Source: Sulfodiicoccus acidiphilus
GTDB taxonomy: Archaea; Thermoproteota; Thermoprotei_A; Sulfolobales; Sulfolobaceae
Length of the DNA: 64,000 nucleotides
Assembly (NCBI RefSeq): GCF_003967175.1
Contig: NZ_AP018553.1
Coordinates: forward strand, 992,001-1,056,000
Reading direction: 5' to 3'
Shown: positions 24,172 through 39,279 of the stretch, piece after piece
Layout of the letters: every line of letters begins with the position of its first letter
How positions within the stretch are numbered: position 1 is the stretch's first letter
Translations under genes and position numbers: made by a program
Notes under the pieces: model-generated
Databases searched by the model: none
Seen by the model: the letters and a program-made list of their open reading frames with translations, nothing else
Told to the model about the DNA's origin: nothing

Positions 24172-24607
24172 TATTACTTCCTCTTAAAATTAGGAAAATG
24201 ATTTCTAGATATAATTTTTACTTCCTTATAGAATTCCTTATGGGAAAGATTAATATAATCTTCAAATTTAAGTAAATGAGCCACTATTTTACTGAATCAA
24301 ACCTTGATCAATTCAACTACGGAAAACTTCTGCCTAGGAGACAGCCTTGCTTGGGTACATATTGAACGTGGGATTTCACTGGGATTTCACAGGGTGGCCC
24401 ACCGAGCTAGGAGTAACTAAGTGAAGACGTTTAGGTAGTAACAAAATTAAACATCTTAAAATTAAATATAAATTTCTAATATTAAATAAGGCCCTAGAAC
24501 AATTGGGGGACGCGTTGTAATACAGTATGAAGCAAGCGAAGAGGTATTCAGGGCTCTTAAGTTACTAGGTGTTATAAGTCGTTCTCACAAATAATTAGAG
24601 GGGCCCC
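24172..24607. other. AT-rich non-coding region; candidate replication-origin DNA
   Basis: 436 bp without a gene. Both flanks are strongly AT-rich (24172-24290 and 24435-24490). The centre holds a perfect tandem of the 11-mer tgggatttcac (about 24369-24390) followed by agggtggccc, somewhat like the TTC-purine-G-rich Orc1/Cdc6 boxes but not a clear match. It lies directly upstream of a WhiP-like gene; in Sulfolobus, whiP flanks oriC3. The origin call is inference from that neighbour. Confidence 0.35.
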
Positions 24608-36874: not shown

Positions 36875-36883
36875 TTTTATATA
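36875..36883 (+). promoter_or_regulatory. TATA box of the aRF1 gene
   Basis: ttttatata centred near 36879 predicts transcription start at about 36905-36910. ATG 36914 is the first start codon after it. TTG 36972, the first start in the uninterrupted frame, is 60 bp further on and does not fit leaderless spacing. Confidence 0.6.
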
Positions 36884-36913
36884 CGGCAAGCTCATCACTT
36901 CACTTGATCAGGG

Positions 36914-38012
36914 ATGAGTCTTTGAGAAGTATGTAATAAGTAGAAACGAACTTAAGCCTCTGGTAAAGGACTTGAAGAAGTGGAAAGCGCCTGCGACAGT
37001 CCTTCTTTCACTTTACGTTCCGCCAGGTAGACCCATAGCTGACGTGTTGAACAACCTTAGGCAGGAGCTCTCTATATCGCAGAACATAAAATTGAAAAGG
37101 ACGAGGGACGCGGTTGAGGCCGCTATATCTGCTGCCATAGACAGGTTAACTCAGCTCCCCAAAGTGCCAGATAATGGGATCGTTCTTTTCAGTGGGAAAA
37201 ACTTCGACACCGAGGAGTTCAAGTGCATCTTGTTCTCTCCACCAGAGAAAGTGTCAATTTATTTCTACAGGACTGACAAGGAGTTTCACACTGAATTTCT
37301 AGAGGACATGATCGAGGAGAACGATGTATACGGGCTTCTGATTATAGAGAGAGACGAGGCCACCATAGGTATGTTGAGGGGAAGTAGACTCGAGGTTTTA
37401 GATGAGCTGCAGGGCTACATACCCGGCAAGCACCACAAAGGAGGACAGAGCCAGAGGCGCGAGGCGAGGATAATTGAGGAGCTAGTACACGAGTTTCACA
37501 AGGAGGTAGGCGACAGGGCCAACTCTTACTTCCTCCCCTATTTAGAGAGCAAGAAGTTGAAGGGGATCCTAGTGGGGGGACCAGGCTTCGCTAAGCAGGA
37601 CTTCGTCGAGGGAGACTACCTGGACTACAGGCTCAAGAAATTGGTTATGGAGCCCCTTTTGGACGTGAGCTATCAGGGAGATAACGGCCTGAGGGAGATG
37701 GTGACTAGAGCAGGGGACGCATTGAAGGGACAGAAGTTGGTTGAGGTGCAGAAGGCACTCGAGGAGATCAAGTACCACCTAGCGAAGGCTGACGATCTAG
37801 TAGTGTACGGTAGAAAAGAGATAGAGACGGCCATGGATGCGGGAGCACTGGAGTACCTCGTTGTGTATGAGGACGATAACACGGCCTCTTTGATTCAGAG
37901 GGCCGAGAACTCCAAGGTCAATCTTTATGTCATAGGGGACGAAGTGCCCGAAGCGGAGTGGATAAGGAAAACCTTTGCGGGAGCGGTTGGGAAACTGCGC
38001 TACAAGCTCTGA
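36914..38012 (+). CDS. prf1: Peptide chain release factor aRF1, with apparent +1 frameshift at CTT TGA
   Basis: Recognises stop codons and triggers hydrolysis. From TTG 36972 the frame gives 346 residues with the NIK segment of stop recognition and the catalytic GGQ ([12 protein letters not shown]). The conserved N-terminal helix ([20 protein letters not shown]), however, is encoded further upstream with no start codon in its own frame. ATG 36914 (after the TATA box) reads ATG AGT CTT then TGA (36923-36925). Moving +1 over one T gives [11 protein letters not shown]... and a 365-residue product of normal length, with GGQ at 176-178. CTT TGA is the bacterial RF2 frameshift motif. Alternatives are an extra T from sequencing, or internal initiation at TTG. 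Confidence 0.88.

Positions 38013-38093: not shown

Positions 38094-39279
<1,186 letters not shown>

Follow-up and report, generated by a model that had tools for sequence, protein, structure and literature searches.

A probable programmed +1 frameshift at the start of the gene for the single release factor aRF1 in Sulfodiicoccus acidiphilus and related archaea

How does an archaeon make its single, omnipotent class-I release factor when the start codon of the gene runs into a stop codon three codons later? This question is raised by the aRF1 gene of Sulfodiicoccus acidiphilus HS-1T, whose genome is a single contig of 2,353,189 bp. The gene lies in a stretch of 64,000 nt (positions 992,001 to 1,056,000 of NZ_AP018553.1), hereafter called the window, and coordinates are window positions unless stated otherwise. 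The product is identified as aRF1 by profile TIGR03676 (E 1.3e-127, 426 bits against a cut-off of 234.7), and the profile search finds it in single copy in the genome, with one weak match elsewhere that falls below the cut-off. A phmmer alignment to the aRF1 crystal structure 3agk (E 4.9e-129) begins at residue 1 of the +1 body, and the PDB matches of the protein are aRF1/eRF1 and pelota only. The omnipotent aRF1 reads all three stop codons, including TGA and TAG. We argue here that a programmed +1 frameshift controlling this factor is very probably what the locus encodes and is the best explanation of its layout.

On the + strand, ATG 36914 is followed by AGT 36917, CTT 36920 and TGA 36923, as read directly at these coordinates, while the aRF1 body occupies the +1 frame from GAG 36924 to TGA 38010-38012 (Table 1). 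Upstream of GAG 36924, the body frame is open only for GTC TTT, and its earliest ATG, GTG or TTG is TTG 36972, at codon 17. A preliminary description of the window had proposed this arrangement, with a body lacking a start of its own before that TTG, and the sequence confirms it. The TATA box that it had placed upstream of the gene is present as a TATA-like TTTTATATA, and translation through a +1 slip gives the predicted product of normal length (MSL-EKYV...; MSL plus 362, 365 residues in total). Directly downstream of aRF1, 38131-39279 on the minus strand holds an open reading frame whose translation, judged by eye, resembles an IS605-type OrfB/TnpB transposase. Elsewhere in the window, 24172-24607 corresponds by its coordinates to the second putative origin, oriC-2, upstream of whiP (1,016,172-1,016,607 in PMC6647314).

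Table 1. Features at the 5′ end of the aRF1 gene and their window coordinates
Feature	Position	Strand	Basis
TATA-like promoter element TTTTATATA	36875..36883	+	sequence; centre 35 nt 5′ of ATG
Conserved short 5′ leader block GATCAGGG (consensus GATYAGGG), abutting the start codon	36906..36913	+	conservation; putative function
Zero-frame mini-ORF ATG AGT CTT TGA (Met-Ser-Leu-stop)	36914..36925	+	sequence and relatives
Slip site CTTT (P-site CUU would re-pair as UUU in +1)	36920..36923	+	NTT before stop in 84/84 genes
In-frame stop TGA, putative sensor of the aRF1 level	36923..36925	+	stop kept in 84/84 genes
aRF1 body, 362 codons and TGA stop	36924..38012	+	TIGR03676 match; phmmer to 3agk
First body-frame TTG, implausible as a start	36972..36974	+	would remove conserved N-terminal residues; position not conserved

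The same picture would arise from a sequencing or assembly indel, if the true sequence had two T and aRF1 were in frame with the ATG. The genome was obtained by PacBio RS II/HGAP only and 244 pseudogenes were reported (PMC6647314), and the preliminary description remarked on other indels in the window. Relatives nevertheless rule out a sequencing error. The closest one (L006, metagenome record JAFMDM010000007, an independent assembly with 84% identity) reads ATG AGT CTT TGA GAA G, whereas Sulfolobales archaeon Acd1 (L007) has ATG AGT CTT TAG C; in each of them the body lies in +1. ATG AGT CTT is found in all 31 Sulfolobaceae aRF1 genes examined, spanning 11 genera, and is followed by TGA in 29 and by TAG in two, always with the body in +1; none of these 31 genes has an in-frame start for the body. 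None of these 5′ ends reads ATG AGT CTT GAG without the extra base, the pattern that the preliminary description had named as a refutation, and every Sulfolobaceae relative keeps the frameshift. With the same layout in 31/31 genomes of the family, and NTT before a stop in 84 genes of eight families (below), we give the indel virtually no weight.

Further support comes from the 13-mer GGGATGAGTCTTT, which occurs exactly once per genome in 30 of the 31 Sulfolobaceae genomes, each time at aRF1, while its reversed control pattern is nearly absent from them; the search for the same site in other genes consisted of this 13-mer search. The residue after the shift alternates between Asp or Glu (with TGA) and Ser (with TAG), and the stop persists. 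Judged from the identity in L006 and the conservation in 31/31 Sulfolobaceae, the frameshift layout is far beyond chance.

The site is also constrained at the nucleotide level. Among 135 columns that are invariant in amino acid and degenerate in codon (30 Sulfolobaceae aRF1 genes), a single codon is used only at the TTT of the shift site; the other Phe codons of those genes are 269 TTC and 189 TTT. In 20 genes of other families, TTT stands at every shift site and AGY at every Ser that follows it; elsewhere, the same genes have 173 TTC to 99 TTT and 141 TCN to 130 AGY. The products of per-gene usages are 2e-10 for TTT and 4e-7 for AGY, values that are overstated because the genes are related. 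The sequences bear two marks of a programmed +1 frameshift site: a conserved slippery codon beside an in-frame stop with the product encoded in +1, and nucleotide-level constraint beyond that of the protein.

Beyond the Sulfolobaceae, the shift layout (ATG, GTG or TTG, one to three codons, NTT, a stop and a +1 body) recurs, giving 84 genes in eight GTDB families, that one included. It is found in f4 (20/20 genes), f7 (7/7), f10 (4/4), f2 (4/4), f8 (16/21) and f11 (1/3), and also in f12, outside the order. Ordinary in-frame aRF1 starts characterize f3, f5, f6, f9, f13-f15 and about 40 further families in the phylum; an apparent layout match in f5 (L106) is a false positive with in-frame starts and is left out of the counts. 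Family f4 may be Desulfurococcaceae, f7 Ignisphaeraceae, f9 Pyrodictiaceae and f3 Acidilobaceae with Aeropyrum. Within families having the frameshift, L064, L075, L125, L037 and L039 are natural in-frame versions starting with GTG or TTG, and two f8 draft genomes (L071 and L074) have 5′ ends that fit neither layout cleanly (a TAT TAG slip site and a start in another frame). Over the 84 genes, the slip codon is CTT in 35, ATT in 31, TTT in 16 and GTT in two; the in-frame stop is TAG in 55, TGA in 29 and TAA in none; and the base after the stop is C or T in 81. The preliminary description had read the locus as a prfB-like +1 slip at CTT TGA. That slip is supported but was underestimated: far from being confined to a single genome, the site is shared by eight families, with a varied slip codon and TGA or TAG. 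This variation suggests a system suited to the omnipotent aRF1 rather than an exact copy of CUU UGA, and alternation between TGA and TAG would be expected if an omnipotent release factor were the sensor.

In-frame relatives indicate what the shift would produce. Their N-termini read MSLEEKL (f5 L108), MSSLEKL (f9 L119) and MSLSDKL (f11 L037), against MSL|EKY here, and longer in-frame N-termini are MSLEEKLLVTKEQL in f5 and MSLSDKLTIDRRRL in f11. On this comparison, the zero-frame Met-Ser-Leu joined to the +1 body is an ordinary aRF1 N-terminus rebuilt. That in-frame relatives encode the predicted shift product argues against both direct initiation in the body frame and re-initiation.

In the first of these alternatives, ribosomes would start on a body-frame codon, either UUU or an upstream near-cognate, and the ATG and its stop would be by-products. 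The TTT is indeed invariant, and an SD-like element 6-7 nt before the slip codon stands too near the ATG or GTG for normal use. However, the body-frame codon 5′ of TTT varies (GTC, GTA, ATA, GCA, GGA, GTT and others), and neither the invariant ATG AGT CTT nor the MSL of in-frame relatives would be explained; UUU is not known as an efficient start, and we consider this reading very improbable. Re-initiation would make the mini-ORF a uORF, with termination followed by a new start at TTG 36972 or similar. Such a TTG is present, and a three-codon uORF would be able to attenuate translation. Yet the first downstream start, at codon 17 here, is scattered in relatives between codon 2 and positions past codon 50, in many cases within the conserved N domain, and the residues before it are conserved, making a uORF scarcely credible. 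The requirement for a frameshift to make aRF1 is strongly supported on comparative grounds.

The leader offers a possible stimulator of the shift. Among the 27 Sulfolobaceae genes in which a TATA element is clearly matched, 23 have its centre at -32 to -36 relative to the ATG; this position, with the usual archaeal distance from TATA to transcription start, would put the transcription start near -8 and give a leader of about 8 nt. Each position of the GATYAGGG block (-8 to -1) except Y is kept in 28-31 of the 31 Sulfolobaceae genes, and conservation drops upstream of -8. The 16S tail is GGATCACCTCA, and SD-like matches of at least 4 nt occur near the slip codon in 82/84 genes, weak or differently placed in Sulfolobaceae, where the remnant is only AGG/TGAG. 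In the other families, the distance from SD-like GAGG or GGTGA(TC) to the slip codon is mostly 6-7 nt, and the element runs into the start or directly adjoins it; judged by this spacing, it is too close to the start codon for ordinary use there. The SD-like block may instead stimulate slippage. A universal SD spacing like that of prfB was rejected, as it was not found across the layout genes. Downstream RNA structure gave no consistent candidate for a stimulator, since folding z-scores from simple shuffles, a crude measure, averaged close to zero in most families.

We propose that translation of an mRNA whose leader is very short would initiate at ATG 36914, read Met-Ser-Leu and stall once CUU occupies the P site and UGA the A site. 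When aRF1 is plentiful, termination at codon 4 would release the tripeptide. When it is scarce, a one-base slip from CUU to UUU would make GAG the next codon and yield the full-length aRF1 of 365 amino acids. P-site re-pairing would keep the second and third pairs of the tRNA in every slip codon, with the first lost for AUU and GUU; the slip rate would fall as aRF1 rises and the SD-like leader block would stimulate it. Since termination at codon 4 would compete with slippage, scarcity of aRF1 should favour aRF1 synthesis.

Autoregulation is the most likely purpose of the shift. A constitutive +1 shift at the same site would give a fixed expression level that does not respond to aRF1, and the stop context could then simply be slow; in addition, UAA is never used. 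Such a fixed shift would leave it unexplained that the stop is kept despite changes in the following residue and in the identity of the stop, and that the gene product is the very factor competing at that stop; we judge it improbable. Several points count against the autoregulatory frameshift. TAA never serves as the sensor stop, even though aRF1 reads TAA; with AUU and GUU as slip codons, the shifted tRNA does not regain its first codon-anticodon pair; L071 and L074 do not fit cleanly; the SD-like block is weak in Sulfolobaceae and is spaced unlike that of prfB, so the stimulator may be a different one; and the f8 GTG may in part be what is left of an SD sequence.

The putative circuit can be set beside known systems. 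Antizyme is a eukaryotic +1 slip in which a stop in the A site serves as a feedback sensor, as proposed for aRF1; it senses polyamines and often uses downstream structure, of which none is consistent at aRF1. In bacterial prfB, a +1 shift occurs at CTT TGA, with AGGGGG 3 nt upstream and C following, and the stop is RF2-readable in 100% of motif-bearing genomes (PMC12421855). Like aRF1, prfB is a release-factor gene with an early in-frame stop that is readable by the encoded factor (TGA or TAG for aRF1), a +1 shift at NTT-T (CTT TGA here, as in E. coli), usually a pyrimidine after the stop (81/84 aRF1 genes), and an apparently ancient origin with repeated loss. They differ in that aRF1, the GGQ motif aside, is not related to RF2 and shifts at codon 3-5 rather than codon 26; it uses CTT, ATT, TTT or GTT with TGA or TAG, whereas the prfB stop is RF2-readable, and, in the register used here, some 6-7 nt separate the slip codon from its SD-like block, which sits by the start codon, as opposed to about 2 nt in E. 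coli prfB. Control of aRF1 would thus work like that of prfB but is not a member of the prfB (RF2) family. The class-I release factor of Mimivirus and Megavirus (R726/mg280) is of the eRF1/aRF1 type, and its translation crosses an internal stop by frameshifting, as is proposed for aRF1; that system is viral and combines two recoding events, frameshift and readthrough (PMC3521657). In Sulfolobales, the alpha-L-fucosidase of Sulfolobus solfataricus is made by programmed frameshifting (reviewed in PMC8211752); there the shift is -1, the gene is metabolic and the frameshift occurs in strains of a single species, the gene being full-length in other Sulfolobales.

A tree of 53 aRF1 bodies, built without the start region, recovers every family and requires only 5 state changes. 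A single old gain followed by several losses would agree with it, a direction that the tree leaves unproved. An ancient, repeatedly lost, autoregulatory shift that is convergent with bacterial prfB is the best explanation. It likely originated independently before the split of Sulfolobaceae, f4, f7 and the others, and was kept or lost by lineage as in prfB, with f27 maybe a second case (-1 or +2 at GAA TAA). In f27 (L190-L193 and L200-L203), 8/8 aRF1 genes have, within about 45 nt before the start of the aRF1 match, a mini-ORF that opens with a start codon and GAY GYN or similar and ends in CTG GAA TAA, with the body in its -1/+2 frame; L191 and L200 are without an in-frame ATG, GTG or TTG upstream of the body. 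This GAA TAA site is possibly a second, different release-factor frameshift. Separately, the aRF1 match contains one in-frame TGA in L177 (G336) and one in-frame TAA in L179 (G511), which may reflect error, recoding or a code change.

No prior report of frameshift control of an archaeal release factor was found in a search of published papers, few of them under subscription. Release factors are not among the cases listed in a 2021 review of archaeal recoding (PMC8211752), a 2025 survey of prfB does not mention archaea (PMC12421855), and the aRF1 data contradict, for archaea, the 2012 statement that neither archaeal nor eukaryotic homologs have such autoregulation (PMC3521657). Standard gene calling would be unable to find the true aRF1 N-terminus in frameshift lineages. 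As aRF1 reads all three stops, it tests whether a sensor stop can switch identity while the circuit survives, which the bacterial system cannot do, and since family f1 includes Sulfolobales that are tractable in the laboratory, the question is directly testable. If true, aRF1 would supply the first example of a frameshift circuit in a release factor of cellular archaea and a clear case of convergence, in which unrelated release factors of two domains have come to rely on the same sensor. This circuit would then be one that release-factor genes repeatedly attract, in giant viruses as well as in two domains.
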